From Thermodesulfobacteriota bacterium (lineage in GTDB: Bacteria > Desulfobacterota_D > UBA1144 > Nemesobacterales > CSP1-2): DNA of 64,000 nt. A program made the position numbers and the translations under genes. The stretch is from NCBI GenBank assembly GCA_035559815.1, contig DATMAT010000076.1, positions 1 through 64,000 of the forward strand, written 5' to 3'. The notes under the pieces were generated by a model. It searched no databases. It was not told the origin of the DNA and worked only from the letters and a program-made list of their open reading frames with translations. Below are positions 872 through 55,783 of the stretch, piece by piece; within the stretch, counting starts at the first letter, position 1; every line of letters starts with the position of its first letter.

Positions 872-2293
872 ATGTTTCCTCAGAAAGTAGGCGATGTTTT
901 GAAATTGATCAAGGAAAAGGACGTTGGGATAGTGGACCTGCGATTTCTCGACTTTCTAGGAACCTGGCAGCACTTCAGCGTTCCTTCGCATCAGTTGGAC
1001 GAGAAGTCATTCGAGGAAGGACTCGGTTTTGACGGGTCGAGTATACGCGGATGGCAGTCAATCCATGCTAGCGACATGCTGGTCGTGCCAGACCCAAGAA
1101 CGGCTCGAATAGACCCGTTTACTGCTGCTCCGACTTTGGCGGTAATATGCGATGTGGTAGACCCGATAACCCGTGAGCCATACTCACGAGACCCCAGAAA
1201 CATCGCTAAAAAGGCCGCCGCTTACATGAAAGGGACCAAAATAGCCGATACCGCTTATTTTGGGCCAGAGCTCGAATTCTTCATCCTAGACGATGTCAGA
1301 TACGACCAAACCTCCAGCTGCGCTTACTACTTCGTGGATTCGGTAGAGGGAGCCTGGAACACCGGCAGAGACGAAAAGCCAAACCTTGGATACAAGCCCA
1401 GGTACAAAGAAGGATACTTCCCCGTGCCCCCTTCAGACACCCTACAGGATATAAGGTCGGAAATGGTAAAGGTGCTGGAGGAACTGGGCATTACGGTCGA
1501 AGCGCATCATCACGAAGTATCAACGGCCGGCCAGGCCGAAATTGACATGAAATTTGCCCCGATCGTGGATATGGGCGACAGGATGAAGTGGTATAAATAC
1601 GTATGTAGAAACGTGGCCAAGAAGTACGGCAAGACGGTCACTTTCATGCCCAAGCCGATCTTCGGAGACAACGGCTCCGGAATGCACACACATCAATCAC
1701 TATGGAAGAACGGTGAACCTCTCTTTGCCGGAAACGGATACGCCGGTTTAAGCGACATGGCCCTACATTATATTGGCGGACTTTTAAAGCACGCAGCGGC
1801 CATATGTGCAATTACTAACCCGACTACAAACTCATATAGAAGACTGGTACCCGGGTTTGAAGCACCGGTCAACCTTGCATATTCCGCACGAAATAGAAGC
1901 GCGGCAATAAGGATCCCTATGTATTCGCCGAGCCCCAAGGCAAAGAGAATAGAGTGTAGATTTCCAGACCCATCCTGTAATGGTTATTTAGCCTTTGCCG
2001 CCATGCTGATGGCCGGGCTTGACGGGATTGAAAAGAAGTTGAACCCAGGGGAGCCCCTGGATAAGGACATTTACGCCCTGGGGCCGGAAGAGCTGGCTGG
2101 AATTCCATCGGTTCCCGGTTCTTTGGAAGATGCACTAAAAGCCCTGGAGAATGACCACGAATTCCTGCTCAAGGGAGATGTATTCACCGAGGACGTTATC
2201 GAGACATGGATAAACTACAAGATAGAGCACGATGTCAATCCGGTAAGACTCCGCCCGGTGCCTTACGAGTTCATGCTTTATTTTGACGCCTAA
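872..2293 (+). CDS. glnA: Glutamine synthetase type I (GSI-beta)
   Basis: From ATG 872 the protein has 473 residues, the usual GSI length. It makes glutamine from glutamate, ammonia and ATP and is the main ammonia-assimilating enzyme. Visible motifs include the N-terminal [14 protein letters not shown] beta-grasp segment, FDGSSIRGW, the ATP-binding [16 protein letters not shown] and [21 protein letters not shown] places the adenylylation tyrosine at about residue 401, so the enzyme is probably covalently regulated as in proteobacteria. An alternative ATG lies at 818, adding 18 residues rich in Lys, Ser and Asn. Both starts have a good ribosome site (AGGAGG at 802-807 and GGAGG at 857-861). 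The shorter form matches the family; which is used is unresolved. Confidence 0.95.
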
Positions 2294-2311
2294 AACTAGG
2301 AAACCACATCA

Positions 2312-2340
2312 TGTAGGGAATGCTTAGTGCATTCCCTACA
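2312..2340 (+). terminator. Hairpin after glnA, likely terminator
   Basis: A perfect 12-bp stem, TGTAGGGAATGC (2312-2323) pairing with GCATTCCCTACA (2329-2340), closes a five-base loop 18 bases after the glnA stop. The following sequence is pyrimidine-rich but has no clean U-tract, so termination may be inefficient. It could also be a dispersed palindrome. Confidence 0.6.
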
Positions 2341-2755
2341 TAAGCTCTCAACTCTTTTATAAAACCGAATGAAAATCTTTACGACAACTGTAAGATAGCT
2401 ATACCTCCGTAAGCGGTCTAGCATGGTATTCTGGACTGCCCTTCGACTCCTCAAGATAGACTCCGCGACAAAGTGATTTATGGCAGGAAAGATTAAGAGA
2501 CTAATCCGGCCGCAAAGGACGGGTCCTTCTTGAATGCACCGCTGGTTGAGAGAACCGGTATAGTTCTTCACGTTCTTAAATCAAACTTTCGGCTGAAGAT
2601 ATAAACTTACTAAGTAAAAAGTCTTACCCTCTTTTAAGACTAGACAATCTATACCACTCCTTGCTACAATTGCATTTACGCCCCTGTTGTGAAATGAATG
2701 AGCCCGATTCCTGATTCCACAACAAGAGGTCAGGTCAGAGAAGGAGGGTATAGAG
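2341..2755. other. Intergenic region with nothing recognised
   Basis: About 415 bases between the glnA hairpin and the next gene. Short open frames on the minus strand lack ribosome sites and protein-like composition. The promoter of the downstream gene should be here, but I could not identify a clear one. The only definite element is the ribosome site AAGGAGGG at 2741-2748. Confidence 0.5.
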
Positions 2756-3544
2756 ATGACGTGTAACATGGGAAAGACAGTTTATTGTGTTGCTTTATTA
2801 GTATTTATAGCGGCATTAATTAGCCCAATTAGGGCTATGGGAGTAGTGGTTAAGATCAACCAGTCAAAGGCTAATAATGGTAACGTCACTCCCGGCGACG
2901 CCCCCGGTTTTCCGGTGACCATTAGCCGGCCCGGGAGCTACCGTCTAACCAGCAACCTAACCGTACCTAATGAAAACACCTCTGCAGTTGAGATTACAAC
3001 TGATGATGTAACCTTGGACCTTGGTGGTTTTCTGATCAAGGGGCCTACAGTGTGCTCATCGGGTAACCCTGTGAACTGTAGCCCTATAGGCACTGGTGAT
3101 GGAGTGAATGCAAATGGTAGGACAAACATCACTGTTGTGAATGGAACTGTGCGGGGAATGGGGGATGACGGAATTGTTGGTGGAAAGGCATACCGTATTG
3201 AAGACGTACATGTCATTAGCAACGGCGATGATGGCATCGTCGGCGGTTATGGAATCGTAAAAGAAAATACGGCGACATTGAACGGCGGTAATGGTATCTC
3301 CGCCGGGGGTGTAATAACCGGAAACACGGTATTAGATAACGGCCAGGACGGCATATCCGCCGCTGAAGGCCTGGTGCTAGGAAACACGGCAATCGATAAT
3401 GCCGGCTTTGGCCTAAATCAGCCCAATAATGGCGGCTATGCTAACAACGTATTCACCTTTAACAACAGTAATGGCAACCAGGTAGATGGTAGCAGCAATG
3501 AAATTGGCTTCAATGTGTGCGGTGCTGATACAATCTGTCCATAA
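2756..3544 (+). CDS. Secreted right-handed beta-helix (PbH1-type) protein
   Basis: 262 residues. A short basic N-terminus and a hydrophobic stretch (YCVALLVFIAALISPIRAMG) form a signal peptide. The mature part is rich in Gly, Asn and Asp and repeats rungs of the form GNTVLDNGQDGISA, ENTATLNGGNGISAG and HVISNGDDGIVGG. These are typical of parallel beta-helix (PbH1/NosD-like) folds seen in carbohydrate-binding or carbohydrate-cleaving secreted proteins. ATG 2756 has AAGGAGGG seven bases upstream. No catalytic residues can be assigned, so enzyme versus surface protein is open. It is monocistronic and convergent with nuoL, with a gap of only 47 bases and no obvious terminator. Confidence 0.75.
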   Translation: MTCNMGKTVYCVALLVFIAALISPIRAMGVVVKINQSKANNGNVTPGDAPGFPVTISRPGSYRLTSNLTVPNENTSAVEITTDDVTLDLGGFLIKGPTVCSSGNPVNCSPIGTGDGVNANGRTNITVVNGTVRGMGDDGIVGGKAYRIEDVHVISNGDDGIVGGYGIVKENTATLNGGNGISAGGVITGNTVLDNGQDGISAAEGLVLGNTAIDNAGFGLNQPNNGGYANNVFTFNNSNGNQVDGSSNEIGFNVCGADTICP

Positions 3545-44261: not shown

Positions 44262-44966
44262 CTACTTCTTGGTCCACCTTCCATCGGGCAATTGAATTTC
44301 CCATCCGGATTGGGCCTCTTCCCTTCTTACCTCGGCATACTGCTCGGCCGCTTGAGGAAGGACGCGGTTTACATTCTCAGGAGTCGGGTCAAGATTATTT
44401 ATCTTCACTATTGCCTTAGCCATTCCCTTGATGATGATTTGTCTATCGGCATTCTCCGCGCTGAAATCTGCGGTTTCTGGTGGTGATAAATTTCCTCTAC
44501 GAACCAGGAGCCCTTTATTCCCCTCCCCCACTTTCCCCTGTGCCAGCAAATTGTTTATACTGGCAAGCCGCTTACTTCTGCTCCGAAAAGCCTGCATTAC
44601 CTCGGGCATCTTGCGAATTTCGCTGGTAATCTGCTGAGCCAGGTTTCCCTGCGCCCAGGCCATAGTGCCTATATTCAGGTCAAACTTCCTCCGAAGTAAT
44701 ATAATTCTTCTCGATTCTAACTGGGGCTTCTCCGGATAGGTTTTGAGACTTTGAGGCTGTCCCTGCGGTTTAGGTTTGTCCGGGGTTTTTGGAGACTCCG
44801 GAGCTTCTTCAGGGGCTTGCAGCAGCTCTTCTTCGAGACTTCTATACGCCTCCCTCACCTCTTCCGCCGGAAAGTAAATATTGACCGTGACGATCGCACA
44901 TGACGTTAAAGAAGTAAACATCGTCAGAAAAACCGCTGTAAAAACTACTCTTGCTATTATCTCCAT
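44262..44966 (-). CDS. ydbL: YdbL-family (DUF1318) lipoprotein
   Basis: 234 residues from ATG 44966, with GAGGTGAAG upstream. A signal ends in a lipobox, SLTSC, near residue 24, then AIVTVNIYFPAEEVREAYRS. A Pro/Gln-rich linker follows. The DUF1318 core reads LLAQGKVGEGNKGLLVRRGN and ENADRQIIIKGMAKAI, and the chain ends WEIQLPDGRWTKK. E. coli ydbH-ynbE-ydbL act together in lipid transport to the outer membrane, with YdbL helping the YdbH-YnbE bridge. Here the lipoprotein anchor is on YdbL itself and no separate ynbE is seen. It is 19 bp after ydbH. Confidence 0.83.
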   Translation of the reverse strand: MEIIARVVFTAVFLTMFTSLTSCAIVTVNIYFPAEEVREAYRSLEEELLQAPEEAPESPKTPDKPKPQGQPQSLKTYPEKPQLESRRIILLRRKFDLNIGTMAWAQGNLAQQITSEIRKMPEVMQAFRSRSKRLASINNLLAQGKVGEGNKGLLVRRGNLSPPETADFSAENADRQIIIKGMAKAIVKINNLDPTPENVNRVLPQAAEQYAEVRREEAQSGWEIQLPDGRWTKK

Positions 44967-44985
44967 CGCTTCTTCACCTCTAAAC

Positions 44986-47900
44986 TTATTTTCCGTACTC
45001 AATTTTAAGCTCACCTTTACTGGCCCTTCTTGCCGTTTCCCGGATCACAGAGAGAAAATGAGCCAGAGATATAGAATTTCTTCTTTCATCTACTTTTATG
45101 GATAAATCCTGTACCACAAGCATTCGGTGTGATATCTCCAATTCTTTGAACGTAATAACGCCGTCTTTGATGTAACCACTCATCTCTCCCTTATCGTATT
45201 TCCGGGATTCCCGGAGGAAGAATTTCTCCTTCACCCCCAGCTTCTGCAGTAGCGCCTTGGCAATCCTACTGGGTTCTTCTTCCGATTTTATAGTCCAGAA
45301 ATTAAAGAGGCCGTCGAGGGTGTTTAATTTTTTCCCCTCTCCGCTCATCCAGAAGAGACCGTTGGTTATTCCGGATATGTAATCCTTGGCGGAGGGGATG
45401 CTGTCCGAAATGTTTGCCAGGCTGACCTTCCTGAATAGGAATGACAGGTCATATTTATTGGCTTTACCACTGAAGTCAAATTGCCCGGTGCCAAAAGCTT
45501 GGCCTTCATACAACCGAGACTCTAGTCGTCTCAGGTTGATTCCTTTGCTACTCAACTCAATTGCACATTCTATATCCTCAAACCTCAAAAATCCATATGC
45601 TATTTCTTCAATACTCAGAGTGCTCTCATCGTTTTTGAGACTATTCGCTTTCAATGTGTCGAGAAAGGCGCTAAATACCTTTTCATCGAGAAGCTTTTGG
45701 TCACCTTTTTTCTTGTAATTCCTTATGAGAGACGGCAAGGATGTAAATGGATTGACCTCATTCTTAATAGGGATGGCTCCGTTTATACCTTTAACATAAA
45801 AAGCTGTGCCGTTAACCCATCCTCCAAACGACACTTCATCGACCGAAAATTCTCCCTGAAGCGAGCCATTCTCATCCAAGAACCGGTCGTAGATGAGAGT
45901 CAAACTGACGCCACCCTGAAATTCTCCTTCACTCAAAAACTGGGGAAGAAGAGGAGATACGGTTTTCTGGATAAAAACCAAAGGAATTTTGGGTACATCG
46001 ACCCAAAGACGGCCCGTTCCGTTACGGATATTTTCCACACCCGCTCTCAAGCTGATTTTGTTGCCCTCTTCATTCTGTATAAACCCCTGTTTAAGATATA
46101 TGGTTTCACCGGTCATTTCTACCTGCATCTCCCCACTCAAATTTGAAAATACCCCGTCTCTTTCCATGCTTAGATTACTGAATCTGATTTCCCCTTTTCC
46201 CTCCGGTATTGAGGAATTTTCGATGCTACCATCAAAACTCGTACTCAGGTTCCCAATCGCCAGCTTGAGTCCTCCTAAAGAGAAAATAGGGTTTTTTAAT
46301 TCCAAGCGGGAGGAAATGAAAGGAACGGAGGAAGAGGTCTCAACGAGGATATTTCCTCCGAGGTCTCCTCCAGAAAAACGGCCAGAGATTATCTTTAACG
46401 TGATTCCATCCGGGGAAGACCGGATTAGGAATGATAAATCCTCGAGAGGCTGTGATACGATATCCGCCCCACCGACATGCAGGTTTCCATTCAGCTTTGT
46501 TTTTTGATCCCCCATAGTTTGAATCAATAATTCCGCTTCTATTCCCTCTGATTTTATTTTGCCGCCGAAGCCGGAGAAACTGCCTTCTCTGAATTTGATT
46601 TGGTATGGCGTGCTTTCTTTGTCGTCACCAAAGACAATGTTAAGTTCCTCGGCATGTAAGTCCCCATAGCTCCCCAACTGAGATTTTAAGGCTGTGAGCC
46701 GCAATAGATTGTTACTGAAATCAAAGTTGGTGGAGAGCTTAGGGAATGAAGCCTCCCCGTATCTCCCTTCCGAGCCTTCCAAGCCGCCCGAAATAACCAG
46801 CTCTGCATCTTTTTCGGCGCTGATATCCAACCTGAACTCATTAAGATGGACGTCCCTCTCGGTTATTTGAAACCGGGAGCCGATTGAATACAAACTCAAT
46901 CCCCAATGGCTATTTTCATACAAATTAAAACGAAGCTCGGTTATATTTCCTCTAGTTATGAGGAACTCACCGTATGAAAGATTTTCGTAGGATATACCCT
47001 TGCCTTCGATGTAAATTCGACTGTTTTCATTTCCCGATACCATCTCTCTACTTTCCTTCTCCCTTCCTCTATGTACCTGGTCATGAGACTCATTGCTTAG
47101 AGATTCCGAAACTAGTTTAAACCGGAGAGGCTCTAGAGATTCGACCCTCGACGCCTCGATTCCGCCACCTTCACCTCCCGCCGCTAATTTAAAATCCCGA
47201 AGGGAAAATGAGAGCGCGGTGTCAAATCCCTTCATATCTTCACTCATAAATCTGGCATTCACCCTTTCCAGCTTCCCCTCTAAGCCGCCAGAGATGAAAC
47301 TCTCCTGAACCTTTTCCAGGCTCATGCCCGAAGCCGCTAAATTCCCGGAGACCAGATTCTTACCATCTAAAAATTCAAACCGGGCATCGCCAGATATCAC
47401 CCCGTCAAGAAACGAACCCTTTAAGGAGGAAAATTCAAGCCTTTTATTCTTTAAGCCCTTATCGGCTATAAACTCGACCTTTCCTTTACCCCCATTAAAC
47501 TTTCCGATTTTGGTGAAAGCGTTTTTGAATGAGAAAACCCCGGAAGCGGAAAACCCCGCTTTCGCGCTATCTTGAAAGGTATTTTTAGAATGGACCTCCC
47601 CGTTTATTCCCCTGATCTCAAAGCCTCTATTCTTATCCCTAACGTTTAATTGATCCAGAAGAACATTTCCATACAAGGAGAAATTTTTACCAGCCTTCGA
47701 GCCGATAAGCTTAATATCGTCTGCCCTGGCTGCCCCGGAAAATTCAAGACCGGAAAGGGCAGTAACCAACCTGGGAATTTCCTCTATTTCTATATCCCCG
47801 GTCTCCCCTACGAGGCTGATAATGCATTCTTTGGTAACTTTCTCGATGCTCCCGGTAAATGAAGAACGGAACAAATTATCCATACTGAAATTTACTGACT

Positions 47901-48756
47901 TGAAAAAAGCGCTATCGGTTGATTTCCGATAGGTTAAATCGTATTCCAGTTTCCCGGAGAAGTTCGACTCTTCGGTCAAGGTCGTAAAGTTGACCAGGCC
48001 ATGAGATGTTATATTTTCAGAAACCTCAAACTTTATGTCCGATGATATGGCTAGATTAACCTGCGGAGAAATATCCGTGAGAAAAGAGCTTGTGTCTAAC
48101 TCCGGCAGGTTTATCCTTAACTCCCCGGCCGGTTTGTCCAAAAATGGGTTAATCCTACCTTTAATCTCAACTTCGTTTTCCTCGATATCTAAATTGCCGG
48201 AAAGTAGAAACGTTCTTTGCTCTGCCCGCTCCGCGTCTTCGAAATCAACCTCCATCTTTTTTGAATTCAGAAATACGCCCGGCAGAACTTCAATTCGGGC
48301 ATCGTGTATTTCCAGATGTTTGACCTCCACCGAAAGCGGTTTTTCTTTTTGTTCTCCTTGCGTGAACAGATTCACTAATCTATTTAATTCCTCCCCGGTC
48401 AGAGAAAAAACCGGTTTGTCGATTATTATTCCTCTAAGCTTGACCCTCCAATTGAAAAGTGAGGAGAGAATCTCGGGCTTGACGGCTATCTTGCCGATTT
48501 TCAGTATAGGCTTTACCACGCTGACCGGGTCGGAGATTTCTATCTCGCTTCCCCTGAGACCGGAAAGGAAATCAAACTCTATATCTTTAATCTCTATTTT
48601 GTATCCTTTGTCCCTAGAAACCTCTTCTATGAAACCGCGTATCTGTCCCGGAATAATTACCTCGGTTACGTAAATGTAGGAGATGACAAAGAGAAGAAAA
48701 AGAATAGCTAGTATAGCTAGAGAGAGCTTGGCTGGAGTAATCTGCCCAAAGGACAT
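44986..48756 (-). CDS. ydbH: YdbH-like AsmA-superfamily lipid-transfer bridge protein
   Basis: 1256 residues. One N-terminal membrane anchor (LSLAILAILFLLFVISYIYVT) is followed by a very long chain of amphipathic beta-strands with repeated GGLEG and SGNL type turns, typical of the AsmA/YhdP/TamB/YdbH superfamily that forms hydrophobic grooves spanning the periplasm. The C-terminal region FNFWTIKSEEEPSRIAKALL and DGVITFKELEISHRMLVVQD matches the conserved YdbH/AsmA-like end. With YdbL next to it, a YdbH role in phospholipid transport to the outer membrane is likely. It is longer than E. coli YdbH (about 880). ATG 48756 lacks a ribosome site, and a TATAAT lies only 12 bases upstream. Confidence 0.8.
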   Translation of the reverse strand: MSFGQITPAKLSLAILAILFLLFVISYIYVTEVIIPGQIRGFIEEVSRDKGYKIEIKDIEFDFLSGLRGSEIEISDPVSVVKPILKIGKIAVKPEILSSLFNWRVKLRGIIIDKPVFSLTGEELNRLVNLFTQGEQKEKPLSVEVKHLEIHDARIEVLPGVFLNSKKMEVDFEDAERAEQRTFLLSGNLDIEENEVEIKGRINPFLDKPAGELRINLPELDTSSFLTDISPQVNLAISSDIKFEVSENITSHGLVNFTTLTEESNFSGKLEYDLTYRKSTDSAFFKSVNFSMDNLFRSSFTGSIEKVTKECIISLVGETGDIEIEEIPRLVTALSGLEFSGAARADDIKLIGSKAGKNFSLYGNVLLDQLNVRDKNRGFEIRGINGEVHSKNTFQDSAKAGFSASGVFSFKNAFTKIGKFNGGKGKVEFIADKGLKNKRLEFSSLKGSFLDGVISGDARFEFLDGKNLVSGNLAASGMSLEKVQESFISGGLEGKLERVNARFMSEDMKGFDTALSFSLRDFKLAAGGEGGGIEASRVESLEPLRFKLVSESLSNESHDQVHRGREKESREMVSGNENSRIYIEGKGISYENLSYGEFLITRGNITELRFNLYENSHWGLSLYSIGSRFQITERDVHLNEFRLDISAEKDAELVISGGLEGSEGRYGEASFPKLSTNFDFSNNLLRLTALKSQLGSYGDLHAEELNIVFGDDKESTPYQIKFREGSFSGFGGKIKSEGIEAELLIQTMGDQKTKLNGNLHVGGADIVSQPLEDLSFLIRSSPDGITLKIISGRFSGGDLGGNILVETSSSVPFISSRLELKNPIFSLGGLKLAIGNLSTSFDGSIENSSIPEGKGEIRFSNLSMERDGVFSNLSGEMQVEMTGETIYLKQGFIQNEEGNKISLRAGVENIRNGTGRLWVDVPKIPLVFIQKTVSPLLPQFLSEGEFQGGVSLTLIYDRFLDENGSLQGEFSVDEVSFGGWVNGTAFYVKGINGAIPIKNEVNPFTSLPSLIRNYKKKGDQKLLDEKVFSAFLDTLKANSLKNDESTLSIEEIAYGFLRFEDIECAIELSSKGINLRRLESRLYEGQAFGTGQFDFSGKANKYDLSFLFRKVSLANISDSIPSAKDYISGITNGLFWMSGEGKKLNTLDGLFNFWTIKSEEEPSRIAKALLQKLGVKEKFFLRESRKYDKGEMSGYIKDGVITFKELEISHRMLVVQDLSIKVDERRNSISLAHFLSVIRETARRASKGELKIEYGK

Positions 48757-48864
48757 GGTATAGGGATATTATAAACAGGAATTGGTTGATTTAAACAAAT
48801 AATCCAGAGCTTAGTTAAAAATATGTAACGTTCCCCCAAATTCTGTTGCTTACAGTCTGCCTTT

Positions 48865-48892
48865 TTGATATATTCAAAAATCATGATATCTT
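48865..48892 (+). promoter_or_regulatory. Promoter of the first paralogous lipoprotein gene
   Basis: TTGATA (48865-48870), 16 bases, then TATCTT (48887-48892). The same arrangement, with the same flanking CTTTTTGATATA and CAT-ATATC blocks, precedes the second paralogue at the same distance from its ATG. Conservation in a duplicated pair supports it. Confidence 0.6.
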
Positions 48893-48928
48893 AGAGCCTA
48901 TTCTGAGGCCATTCCAAGGAGGATGATC

Positions 48929-49483
48929 ATGAGACAATTGCTAAATAGGTGTTGTTATGGCGTGATAACTTTGGCTTTCTCTTTGAGCTTACTTAGTTGT
49001 GAAGATGACCTTGATCCCAAGACATTCATAGAGCCTATCTTTTGTGATAGCGGCATTGTAGATATAGACGAGGAAGGAAATAACGTGGTTATTAACGGAG
49101 CAAACCAGGTTGAATGTATCAGGGCCGAGGGAAGCTGTACCGTCAACATGCTGGCAAATGATATCGTCTTGCAGGGCTGTCTAGAGTGTATAGAAGCCAG
49201 CGATGAAGCCGAGGTTAATTTGACCACTGAGTCCAGAGATATAAGGTGCATTACTGAAGGAGACGGAGTTCTGGCCACGGATAATGCCATTGTTACCCTG
49301 GTCTCAGGTAACGTCATAGACATATTTTCGAATCAGGCCAACGGCATCAGAGCAGAGGGTGCATCTTTTGTAGAACTGGTAGCTCCGAATCAATGCATTA
49401 TCGAAGCAGACCAGGAGGCCATTCTAGCGGACGACACTGCAGAAGTCGATACCAGTGGCTGCAACGAGCTGATAATTCAATGA
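48929..49483 (+). CDS. Cysteine-containing lipoprotein, tandem paralogue 1
   Basis: 184 residues from ATG 48929, six bases after AAGGAGG. An N-terminal signal ends in the lipobox SLLSC, then EDDLDPKTFIEPIFCDSGIV. The body is built from short repeating rungs such as CIRAEGSCTVNML, CIEASDEAEVNLT and GIRAEGASFVELV, suggesting a small parallel beta-helix, with cysteines at regular places. It ends in TAEVDTSGCNELII. The next gene encodes a clear paralogue. No family name is recognised; a surface or periplasmic adhesin-like role is a guess. Confidence 0.78.
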   Translation: MRQLLNRCCYGVITLAFSLSLLSCEDDLDPKTFIEPIFCDSGIVDIDEEGNNVVINGANQVECIRAEGSCTVNMLANDIVLQGCLECIEASDEAEVNLTTESRDIRCITEGDGVLATDNAIVTLVSGNVIDIFSNQANGIRAEGASFVELVAPNQCIIEADQEAILADDTAEVDTSGCNELIIQ

Positions 49484-49670
49484 AAAGTAAATCAGGCCAA
49501 AAATGATTGGCGGGTCGACATAATTTCCTTGAAGCCAAAGGCTCCCGATTTTTATTTGGATTTGCTAAATATAAGATTCCGCATGATTCAGGGAAATATT
49601 CCGATTCATTGGAACGATACCAAAAAAACAGGCCCCCCATAATCGAATCTAGCATATTCATTCCCGCTTT

Positions 49671-49699
49671 TTGATATACTTAGTGAAGCATAATATCAC
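49671..49699 (+). promoter_or_regulatory. Promoter of the second paralogous lipoprotein gene
   Basis: TTGATA (49671-49676), 17 bases, then TATCAC (49694-49699). It matches the element before paralogue 1, including flanking bases, and lies about 35 bases before the ATG at 49735, as in the first copy. Confidence 0.6.
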
Positions 49700-49734
49700 G
49701 CAATTTATAAAGACTGTATGGTGAGGTAATAGCC

Positions 49735-50292
49735 ATGGGAAAATTAAAAATAAAATTACATTGCCTCAGGGCACTGATTTTAGCCTGCTTCTTGAGCTTA
49801 ATTAGCTGTGATGACGGCCTTGAGCCCTTGATATTTGAAGACCCTATATTTTGTGATAGTGGCGCCATAGATATAAGGGAAGAGGGAGCAAACCTGATTA
49901 TCAATGCCGATAACCAGGGCGATTGCATCAGGGCGGAGGGAACATGCATCGTCACCATAACCGCCGAGGATGTTATCTTAAACGGCTGCATCAAATGTAT
50001 CGATGCCAGCGATGAAGCCGAGGTTGTATTGTCGGGGAAGTTCGAGGATGTAAGATGCACCTCAATCGAGGATGGAATTAGAGCTTCGGGCGATGCCGTT
50101 ATCACACTCGTTGCCGGTGATGATGTTGTTATATCCTCAGGTCAAGGGAACGGCATCGTGGCGGAAAACGCATCTTTGGTTGAACTGATTGCCGCCGATA
50201 AATGCAGGATCGAAGCCGCCGGGAACGCCATTCTCGAGAGCGACACGGCAGAGGTTGATACCAGCGGCTGCAACGAGCCGATAATAGAGTGA
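49735..50292 (+). CDS. Cysteine-containing lipoprotein, tandem paralogue 2
   Basis: 185 residues. The signal ends in the lipobox SLISC, then DDGLEPLIFEDPIFCDSGAI. It aligns along its full length with paralogue 1: CIRAEGTCIVTIT, CIDASDEAEVVLS, GIRASGDAVITLV, GIVAENASLVELI and the identical end TAEVDTSGCNEPII. All the cysteines are shared. GAGGT precedes the ATG. The pair arose by duplication including the promoter and each copy appears intact, which argues that both are used. Confidence 0.8.
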   Translation: MGKLKIKLHCLRALILACFLSLISCDDGLEPLIFEDPIFCDSGAIDIREEGANLIINADNQGDCIRAEGTCIVTITAEDVILNGCIKCIDASDEAEVVLSGKFEDVRCTSIEDGIRASGDAVITLVAGDDVVISSGQGNGIVAENASLVELIAADKCRIEAAGNAILESDTAEVDTSGCNEPIIE

Positions 50293-50382: not shown

Positions 50383-50913
50383 TTATCCAGGAACCCCGCC
50401 AAACGGATTCCATTTCTCGGTCAGAAGTAGCATTCCGGGAATCAACAGCGTTAGAATAGACTCTATAATAAAGAGCCATCCCACGGTAGTAGCTATTCCC
50501 TTTCCCAGGGAAAGGGCCAGGAAGGCCAGAAGCACGAGGAGCGCCCATGCCAGGCAGAAAATAGCGAACCACAGACCGGCTGCTCCTAATCCGAAGAAAT
50601 GGTAGGCGTACCAGAGGAACACGATAAACGCAAATAAGCAATACCAGCCGAGGCCCTTGGCGTCATATCCCTGCATAAAAATACCAGCTACCATGTAGTA
50701 AATGAGCGCAAAGACACACACCAAAGCTGTAGCAGCAGTCAACCCAAGCGTATGTAGTTTCCATGCCGCTATCGTGATAAGTACGCCTACACCCAGGTTT
50801 AGCACACCTATCTCCTTCGCCCCGGTCTTTCCGAGAAGGGTTACACCATTACCAAAAAACACAAAACCGACTAATAGCAAAACATAACCAAGCAAACCTT
50901 CTACTGGAACCAT
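50383..50913 (-). CDS. UreI/AmiS-type amide or urea channel
   Basis: 176 residues, six to seven membrane helices. GYVLLLVGFVFFGNGVTLLG and KTGAKEIGVLNLGVGVLI start it, and WYAYHFFGLGAAGLWFAIFC follows. These match the AmiS/UreI family of proton-gated urea and short-amide channels. It probably lets urea or an amide cross the inner membrane. No urease or amidase gene is next to it, which is unusual; the nitrilase-family aguB is 40 kb away. AGGAGGAGGT precedes the ATG. It is convergent with the second lipoprotein gene. Confidence 0.85.
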   Translation of the reverse strand: MVPVEGLLGYVLLLVGFVFFGNGVTLLGKTGAKEIGVLNLGVGVLITIAAWKLHTLGLTAATALVCVFALIYYMVAGIFMQGYDAKGLGWYCLFAFIVFLWYAYHFFGLGAAGLWFAIFCLAWALLVLLAFLALSLGKGIATTVGWLFIIESILTLLIPGMLLLTEKWNPFGGVPG

Positions 50914-51714: not shown

Positions 51715-52541
51715 TCACAGCTTGCAACGGTAGTTACATAATTTTAAGGAAAAAATAATTAATCTTTGTAACTTTTCAATTCGTATCCCGATAAGGCGGA
51801 TAAGTTTTCCTTTTGGATTTTCACGAGCATCGAAGAAAGGACGTAAAAGTTTCATAGCCTCATGCCGAAGCACGACTAGCGAGTTTGCCGGGCTATACAG
51901 AGTGTATGATCGGGTTTTTGTTTCAAAATCGGCAAAACGCACGGTAAGGGCCGCAGTACTAAAACTCGCAACCCTTCTTCTTTAAAATTCTTTATGACAT
52001 CCTCGCACATTATTTCAAGGCGTTTTACAACAAAATTCAGGCTTCTGGTATCATACAAAAAAGTTTCTTCCCTTCCGATCGATTTAATCTCATAACTCTC
52101 GAGGATTGGTGATTCATCTCTGCCCCATATCTTTTCGTATAGCTCGCTGCTCCATTTCCCCATCAGACTTTCCAGTTCCTTTCGAGATAATTTTCTTAAC
52201 TCTTCTATTTTTCTGACCTCCACGGCTAAAAATTTCTGCTCGGTTTTTGGACCGATTCCCGGTATCTTGCGAATCGGGAGGGGCGCCAGAAAAGCCTCAA
52301 CCAGCTCAGTAGACGTTTTTTCGGCATCGGCACCCACAACCGTAAGTCCGTTTGGCTTTTGCATGTACGATGCGATCTTTGCGACAAGTTTATTCGGGCC
52401 GATGTCAATTGACGCTGTCAGATTCTCTTTTTCCTTGATTTCTTTTTTAATTATTTTGGAAATATCCACTACTTTTTGATATGATCCGGAGAAACTAAGA
52501 TCGAAATAAGCTTCATCTATACTCACCTGTTCAATGCTGAC
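51715..52541 (-). pseudogene. dinB: dinB (DNA polymerase IV) remnant, 5'-truncated and frameshifted
   Basis: The reading frame resembles Y-family polymerase IV from IEQVSIDEAYFDLSFSG, the catalytic palm motif, through NKLVAKIASYMQKPNGLTVV and the helix-hairpin-helix IRKIPGIGPKTEQKF, into the little-finger domain. A TAA at 52542-52544 cuts the frame directly before this, and the first 100 or so residues of the polymerase are missing. Near 51955 the frame breaks. The little-finger sequence continues in another frame as VRFADFETKTRSYTLYSPAN, ending at 51715. A MITE-like repeat begins 70 bases beyond the truncation. Sequence assembly error could explain the frameshift but not the missing 5' part. 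Confidence 0.85.
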
Positions 52542-54135: not shown

Positions 54136-54292
54136 CTCTTAGCCGTCTATTGTAAACCGTATTGGTCTCTTATATTCTTTAACATAACTTTTATTTTTAG
54201 ATTCAAATCTTGAAGATCATCAAAGATGACATTACGAAGAAAAAAGCCAAAACGCTATCTTACGAACGAATTAGAGCCTATAGGAGCATGTG

Positions 54293-55783
54293 ATGCCCGA
54301 GGAAAAAGGTTTAACCACAAATGTGATTAAAAATTACGTATCCAATTTGGATAGGGATATCTATACCGTGGCCAACCTGCCCGAAGAAGTTATAGCGGTG
54401 ATATTCGCATACGTCAGCAGAAGCCCTAAAAGCTTCAGGGATAACATAGAAACCGTTATAAAGGAGGAGCAGCTTGGACAGGAGAGGGCCGCCAAATTCC
54501 ACGAGAAGTGGGTCCTAAACTACGGCCATGCATCCGTCGCCGAACACGCCGCCGTCCACTTAGGCGTTGAGAGGGTATCTCGTCTTTTTTCATCTCTCCT
54601 GGAGTTATCCAATGAGTATTTATCTTTCACCGAGTATTCCCAGAGATACCAGAAACCGCAGAAAGGGGATTTCTATGTTCCTGAAGAGCTTAAGGATAAA
54701 CCTTCATTGCTCGAAGAGTACATAGAATTAAACAACTACTTGTACGGTACATACGTTCAGATAAACGACAAGCTCTACGATTATCTAAAGCGAAACGTTG
54801 CAGTTCCAAAAGGAGGAGACGAAAAAGCGCACCTTAGAGCTTTGGAGAAAATCGCCTTCGAAGATGCCCGGTATGCCTTAAGTCTTGCCACTTATACCAA
54901 CTTGGGAATGACCGCAAACGCTAGAGCTATCGAAGACTCCCTAACCAAGCTTCTTTCGAACAAGTACCCGGAAGCTAGAAGAAAGGCAGAAGAAATTAAG
55001 AAGGAAGTAACGTTTTCCGTCCCCACCCTGGTCAAATACGCTAATGAAAATAAATATATCAAGGGAACTGGAGAAGAGCTTGAGCGTATAACCCACTCCA
55101 TCTTTACCCCAAAGAATCGGGACCTGTCCAATCAAAACCCCGGGGTAAGGCTCATTGATTGGACCGGTAGTGGCACATCCGACCCGGAGAAATCGGCAAT
55201 AGATAAAATGGTAAATGCAATCCTTTTTGAGTATTCAGACCTGGGATATGATCATATCGAGAAGGAAGCCGGGAACAAAGATTTAGAGAATAAATTGATG
55301 ATAGTCAAAAAAGCGATAGAGAGGCTTGGCAAACATGATAATCCGATAAATGTTTTTAAGCTGATAAACTACGAGGCTGAGTTTGTCATAAGCGAGGCTT
55401 GCTGGCACCAACTTCTGAGGCATCGGAAGGTAAATTGGATTACCCAGGAGCCGAGTGTCTCAAATGGGATTACGGTTCCGCCAAATGTAGAACAGGCAGG
55501 GTCTGAAGAATTGCTTAGAGAAGCAACGCAGAAAAGCGAGTTATTTTATGACAAACTCATGAATGAAAACCTGCCGTTGGTTGCAAGCTATGTTGTTACA
55601 AACGCCCACAACAGGCGGGTTATCGGAAGCTTCGACCTGTGGGAACTATATCACCTTACCAACCTCCGAATGTCCGAAGGCGCACAGTGGGACATCAAAA
55701 ATATAGTGGGAATGCTAGCCAAAGAAATAAGCAAACACCATCCCAACCTCGTCGCCCCGGCGTTGAGGAGGGTTATTGGATAA
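54293..55783 (+). CDS. thyX: Tandem-domain ThyX (flavin-dependent thymidylate synthase) family protein
   Basis: 496 residues, about twice the usual ThyX length. The first half has NYGHASVAEHAAVHLGVERV, FTEYSQRYQKP near residue 116 and LATYTNLGMTANARAIEDSL. The second half has EACWHQLLRHRKVNWITQEP near 376 and WELYHLTNLRMSEGAQWDIK. The ThyX signature RHRxxSxxxxSQRY is split: the first domain keeps the SQRY end but not RHR, and the second keeps RHR but not the rest. ThyX active sites form between subunits, so a fused, asymmetric dimer is plausible. The enzyme makes dTMP from dUMP using FAD and methylene-tetrahydrofolate. AGGAG precedes ATG 54293. Confidence 0.85.
   Translation: MPEEKGLTTNVIKNYVSNLDRDIYTVANLPEEVIAVIFAYVSRSPKSFRDNIETVIKEEQLGQERAAKFHEKWVLNYGHASVAEHAAVHLGVERVSRLFSSLLELSNEYLSFTEYSQRYQKPQKGDFYVPEELKDKPSLLEEYIELNNYLYGTYVQINDKLYDYLKRNVAVPKGGDEKAHLRALEKIAFEDARYALSLATYTNLGMTANARAIEDSLTKLLSNKYPEARRKAEEIKKEVTFSVPTLVKYANENKYIKGTGEELERITHSIFTPKNRDLSNQNPGVRLIDWTGSGTSDPEKSAIDKMVNAILFEYSDLGYDHIEKEAGNKDLENKLMIVKKAIERLGKHDNPINVFKLINYEAEFVISEACWHQLLRHRKVNWITQEPSVSNGITVPPNVEQAGSEELLREATQKSELFYDKLMNENLPLVASYVVTNAHNRRVIGSFDLWELYHLTNLRMSEGAQWDIKNIVGMLAKEISKHHPNLVAPALRRVIG

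Follow-up and report, generated by a model that had tools for sequence, protein, structure and literature searches.

What kind of protein do two adjacent lipoprotein genes without a Pfam match encode, and what might such proteins do at the cell envelope? The genes in question, A and B, lie in a window of 64,000 nucleotides (the whole stretch of DNA that was analysed), and both frames are located where a sequence-only reading of this DNA had placed them. Gene A (48929-49483, + strand) encodes 184 residues: a signal peptide, a lipobox (LLSC, Cys24) and a short beta-helix with eight Cys residues. Gene B (49735-50292, + strand) encodes 185 residues with the lipobox LISC (Cys25) and a beta-helix that spans approximately residues 32-185 in the model described below. 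The earlier description of two 185-residue proteins is thus correct for B and off by one for A. Reading gene A from an alternative ATG at 48923 would give 186 residues; the ATG at 48929 is favoured because an AAGGAGG sequence (48916-48922) lies 6 nt 5' of it and because its spacing from an upstream TTGATA motif equals that seen for gene B. The two proteins align without gaps and are identical at 98/176 positions (56%). All nine Cys residues of the mature proteins, the lipid Cys and eight in the helix, are common to both, so that the proposal of fully shared cysteines holds for the mature chains and only in part for the signal peptides. The sequence TAEVDTSGCNE, described as their shared ending, is present near both C-termini and is followed by four further residues. 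Each protein has an N-terminal signal peptide and a lipobox ending in Cys, a residue that is invariant across an 18-row alignment of the family, and A and B are most likely exported, lipid-anchored envelope proteins, with lipidation and membrane side as predictions.

A and B are sisters in the family tree (support 100/100), as expected for the tandem paralogues that had been proposed. Identity by codon position is 73/77/50%, and the divergence amounts to a dN of 0.31 and a dS of 1.29 by NG86 and to 0.37 and 0.72, respectively, by YN00. Together, these values point to an old duplication under purifying selection; the discordance between the two dS estimates is a point against the explanation favoured here. 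Relatives of A and B were absent from viral contigs in two scans and from the plasmids searched, and a phage- or plasmid-borne pair was set aside as far as these collections show.

Each gene is preceded by a conserved block on the + strand. The block of gene A (48861-48890) runs from CTTTTTGATATA to TGATATC and contains TTGATA (48865-48870) and TATC (48887-48890) separated by 16 nt, and that of gene B (49667-49697) runs from the same sequence to TAATATC, with TTGATA (49671-49676) and TATC (49694-49697) separated by 17 nt. The flanking sequence CTTTTTGATATA is exact in both copies (48861-48872 and 49667-49678), and TTGATA is found 64 nt before the ATG in each case (48929 and 49735). Motifs, flank and spacing therefore agree with the sequence-only reading. 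Of 5000 Markov shuffles, none yielded 12 consecutive identical nt at equal distance from the ATG, and 2 did so when any offset within 20 nt was allowed. Across the whole 3.97 Mb genome, the pattern CTTTTTGATATAN{9,14}ATATC has two sites, both at A and B, and a reversed control pattern has none. A sigma-70 scan of the region returned 5 matches versus 4.6 expected by chance; the gene A copy passes (9/12) and the gene B copy fails with a poor -10. The scan thus gives no support for a sigma-70 promoter, and of the "duplicated promoters" of the earlier reading there remains a conserved, genome-unique block that is a putative promoter or regulator site, with a weak sigma-70 match. Since the block has outlasted divergence at third codon positions, it is probably functional, possibly as a promoter.

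To describe the fold, an AlphaFold2 model of mature B was built from nine sequences (the window and named loci). The model has beta structure only (pLDDT 93.0, pTM 0.88) and predicts the minimal beta-helix that had been suggested from the letters of the DNA. A full-length model of a longer relative (L025, JACPIY010000022.1) has a pLDDT of 81. Both models have the right-handed parallel beta-helix that characterizes PF14262. A Foldseek search of the PDB with the B model gave no match at E<=0.001, and a search against viral models likewise gave none at this threshold. Upon VIA re-alignment of the B model to PDB chains, the autotransporter passenger Vag8 ranks first (Z 13.4), followed by the PF14262 protein Cthe_2159 (PDB ID: 4peu; Z 12.3, rmsd 2.6 over 141 residues, 18% identity); the adhesin EtpA (Z 12.1), PL3 pectate lyases (Z ~11) and the Lactobacillus reuteri SRRP binding region (PDB ID: 5nxk; Z 10.7) score lower. 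For the L025 model, 4peu ranks first (Z 13.2, rmsd 2.8 over 151 residues, 20% identity; next row 11.7), and its N-terminal domain is matched by TTR-like chains. A and B thus share a beta-solenoid class with SRRP and the PL3 lyases and differ from them in having no sequence relative among PDB chains: searches with B, with a profile of 29 helices and with the relative L010 each returned none. Two other candidates were discarded. VgrG solenoids gave best profile matches of E 0.016, taken as chance likeness, and ice-binding proteins, present in the weak Foldseek list, are absent from the 50 re-aligned rows.

Sequence profiles give a similar picture for the relatives. Among Pfam families, PF14262 shares first place in the number of helix domains that hit it (5/29 at E<=1, best 5e-6), and the helix of L010 taken alone scores 26.4 bits against a gathering cut-off of 25.8; the family is not listed in a scan of the whole L010 protein. 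Because a Pfam scan of A and B yields no hit at E<=10 and PF14262 exceeds its cut-off in 0/57 genomes of the phylum in a genome search, A and B are not filed as PF14262 members. Judged by model and profile likeness, the helix of this family is a remote relative of Cthe_2159 and PF14262 and would work like it. A and B differ from Cthe_2159 in falling below Pfam detection, in their lipobox anchor and in their four conserved Cys pairs. At the level of family and fold, the pair is thereby explained as a variant of the Cthe_2159-like helix that is stripped down, duplicated and specific to its lineage.

The lineage to which this variant belongs is defined by its homologues. Two longer ones are encoded in the window genome itself, on contigs C30 (359 residues) and C35 (305 residues). 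Family matches were found in 23/40 genomes searched, with the window's own genome counted, and a helix profile has matches in 25/57 genomes of the phylum and none in family f8 (0/14 genomes) or genus g11, both small-genome groups. A scan of 84,980 species' genomes confirmed 7 loci out of 29 pattern matches; it used a single degenerate peptide pattern, so the family may be more widely spread. For six proteins that were compared (L025-L030), DNA is shared with loci whose genomes belong to the same family or order as that of the window, and the helix of B is 36-43% identical to those of L025-L029. Candidatus Dadabacteria is the label on two records of near kin; among the matches listed, the titles and abstract openings of the Dadabacteria literature on lipoproteins or polysaccharides make no mention of the family. 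With Dadabacteria-lineage members such as L025 and L026 (Bacterium HR37), A and B have in common the lipobox, the rung pattern and a homologous beta-helix with eight Cys residues in register, and by this homology they are members of a lineage-specific envelope lipoprotein family. The earlier statement that no known family came to mind therefore stands as regards Pfam and the lack of a confident known-domain match for A and B themselves, and gives way to relatives within the phylum and a remote kinship with Cthe_2159.

In contrast to A and B, the complete relatives carry a TTR/CarboxypepD_reg-like domain between the lipobox and the helix. PF13620 is detected in 12/18 family members at E<=0.1 and lies above its cut-off in L004 and L019. 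Each of the 25 complete relatives placed in the tree has 138-171 residues before the helix, versus 41-45 in A and B (stop to stop), and the N-terminal domain is missing from both A and B; three rows cut by contig ends (L014, L031 and L063) lie outside the count of complete relatives. A whole-family profile (A2) matches SusC N-terminal extensions with E 0.00065, a likeness that lies in the TTR-like domain, outside the helix. A and B fall within a clade of 13 rows (100/99), each of which retains all eight Cys, and the row nearest to the pair by path is L006, of the same family. This tree omits L018 (cut by a contig end) and L056, which both have short helix matches, as well as L060, which repeats the second gene of L009; alignment A5 omits the same three and L031. 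The simplest reading of these sequences is that the N-terminal domain would have been lost once, before the A/B duplication. Two further arrangements were observed in the family. Locus L009 of another genome holds a second tandem pair (1003-2013 and 2290-3345), made up of full-length members, and in L007/L027 (L027:6004-7239) a long Pro-Ser linker leads to a C-terminal cytochrome c domain (PF13442).

The sequence-only reading had also suggested that the short rungs are stabilized by disulfides, and the distribution of Cys residues is consistent with such bracing. Among 33 family helices, which are open frames and count one protein twice (L060 is a piece of the second gene of L009), Cys64 and Cys85 are conserved throughout (33/33; B numbering); Cys157 is found in 31/32 aligned rows and Cys179 in 31/31. 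Cys40 co-occurs with Cys71 and Cys88 with Cys108, and in L011 and L012 the 40/71 pair is kept and the 88/108 pair is gone. Helix totals are eight Cys in 14 proteins, seven in 2, six in 2 and four in 15; of the seven-Cys rows, L018 is cut by a contig end, and in L056 a further Cys lies immediately beyond the domain boundary. This variation in pairs implies four inter-rung disulfides, 40-71, 64-85, 88-108 and 157-179, whose partners are 20-22 residues apart, approximately one rung, or 31 residues for Cys40-Cys71. Few change events are evident on the tree, and the covariation thus reflects few independent events. The Cys157 equivalent follows Cys64 by 64, 90-97, 115-116 or 141 residues among the relatives, and extra rungs in L010, L061 and L003 shift the last Cys pair by ~24, 24 and 50 residues, respectively. 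The window genome encodes VKOR and Thioredoxin_4 (DsbA-type) proteins, and DsbB was not found in it. We infer that four disulfides link adjacent rungs and so brace the helix of A and B.

What these proteins do is a more tentative matter. The reading that we prefer, to which we give about an even chance, is that A and B are lipid-anchored, disulfide-braced short beta-helices, duplicated in tandem after domain loss, that hold acidic polysaccharide non-enzymatically at the envelope. An ancestral gene would have lost its transthyretin/CarboxypepD-like domain, and the domain-less gene would then have duplicated in tandem with its upstream control block copied along. The mature proteins would consist almost solely of a short right-handed parallel beta-helix of the Cthe_2159/pectate-lyase-like type and would act as binders, and the acidic polysaccharide could be an exopolysaccharide made by the cell itself or a uronate polymer from its environment. 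Cthe_2159 proteins are described as binding cellulose and acid sugars, including polygalacturonic acid (PMC6712302), and L. reuteri SRRP as binding polygalacturonic acid (PMC6973325). The candidate binding face is an outward row of basic residues, rung on rung, at positions 66, 116 and 142 (B numbering), where K, R or H occurs in 25/29, 26/29 and 25/29 rows. The strand pattern suggests that these positions face outward in register with the rungs. The residues are R, R and V in B and R, L and R in A; each copy would have lost a different member of the ladder, which would fit a divided specificity. An extended version is doubtful: here the family would be a lineage-specific kind of envelope lectin that gains or loses whole rungs and whole inter-rung disulfides at a time and has the basic ladder as its anionic-glycan site, and A, having lost the R116 equivalent, and B, having lost 142, would read different charge spacings along acidic polysaccharide under one duplicated, genome-unique control element.

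Several observations weigh against sugar binding. With a pI of 4.05, mature A and mature B are strongly acidic, which disfavours polyanions as ligands unless binding is mediated by Ca2+ or by the basic ladder; calcium is named in the title of PDB entry 4peu. An aromatic platform is missing, with 0 Trp and 0 Tyr in mature A and B, and no carbohydrate-utilisation genes adjoin the pair. Nor is the fold alone a pointer to sugars, because Vag8 outranks Cthe_2159 for B. That same ranking, with EtpA among the further rows, favours a structural or adhesive scaffold, in which the helix would be a stiff, protease-resistant element for cell-cell or surface adhesion or an envelope spacer, with no specific sugar binding. 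Rung number changes by whole units among relatives, as in a spacer, and predicted fibrillar adhesins include a cluster of solenoids with a distant relationship to PF14262 (PMC9210967). We nevertheless consider a scaffold rather unlikely: A and B are the shortest form of the protein and lack the additional domain, which is the reverse of what a stalk would require, and conservation of the three basic positions in 25-26 of 29 rows goes beyond the need of bare scaffolding.

A role in envelope redox chemistry or electron-transfer structures, with the Cys residues taking part or the helix as a scaffold beside cytochromes, is improbable. The cytochrome c domain of L007/L027 does lie above its Pfam cut-off (31.1 bits), and L025 adjoins genes for a MauG-type cytochrome c peroxidase and ApbE/FMN_bind proteins; against this, a cytochrome is seen in 1/9 relatives scanned, A and B have no CxxCH haem motif and no adjoining redox genes, and the Cys residues covary pairwise at rung spacing, like structural disulfides. 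Polysaccharide lyases of the PL1, PL3 and PL9 types need a catalytic Lys or Arg base, and an active lyase of the pectate-lyase superfamily is very improbable here in spite of Z scores of ~9 to 11.7 for PL3- and PL9-type lyases with the B and L025 models, since the 33 helices have 0 columns of invariant Lys/Arg (the best shared column, position 66, is K/R in 28/33), a difference from the PL3 enzymes that counts against a lyase, and mature A and B have no His and just 5 (A) and 8 (B) Lys and Arg residues.

The analysis places proteins without a Pfam hit, from a lineage known chiefly through metagenomes, in a fold and a family and suggests a ligand class that can be tested. The family is also a natural series for the study of beta-solenoid stabilization (eight, six and four Cys; varied rung counts), in which disulfides and rungs change as whole units. 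Beyond that, it is an expansion of envelope lipoproteins of the ordinary, lineage-specific sort.

The surroundings of the pair include several further features. Upstream, on the - strand at 44265-48756, lie a 1256-residue AsmA/YhdP/DUF748-like protein and then a lipoprotein with a C-terminal DUF1318 (YdbL), presumably a lipid bridge of the YdbH type in which YnbE and YdbL are fused. Relatives of the AsmA/YhdP-like gene occur in 7/7 genomes of the family; in two of them (G005 and G001) they are on contigs other than those with the helix matches, so the placement of A and B beside this gene appears peculiar to the window genome. Convergent with gene B is an AmiS/UreI-type channel gene (50383-50913, - strand; PF02293, 103.7 bits). 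A DNA polymerase IV (DinB) gene at 51715-52526 (- strand), near a tRNA-Ala, is fragmented, with PF00817 matched only from profile position 94 and the C-terminal part (PF11799) in another frame, and is either a decayed gene or an assembly frameshift. At 54290-55783 (+ strand), a 497-residue protein has two ThyX (Thy1) stretches and resembles a double-length thymidylate synthase. Elsewhere in the family, the full-length gene is divergent to a conserved gene cluster in three genomes (L026, L027 and L028), whose members, named from their N-terminal sequences, we take to be rsmD-like and coaD-like genes, an aminotransferase and a substrate-binding protein. In L026, a polysaccharide-export gene lies downstream of the family member.
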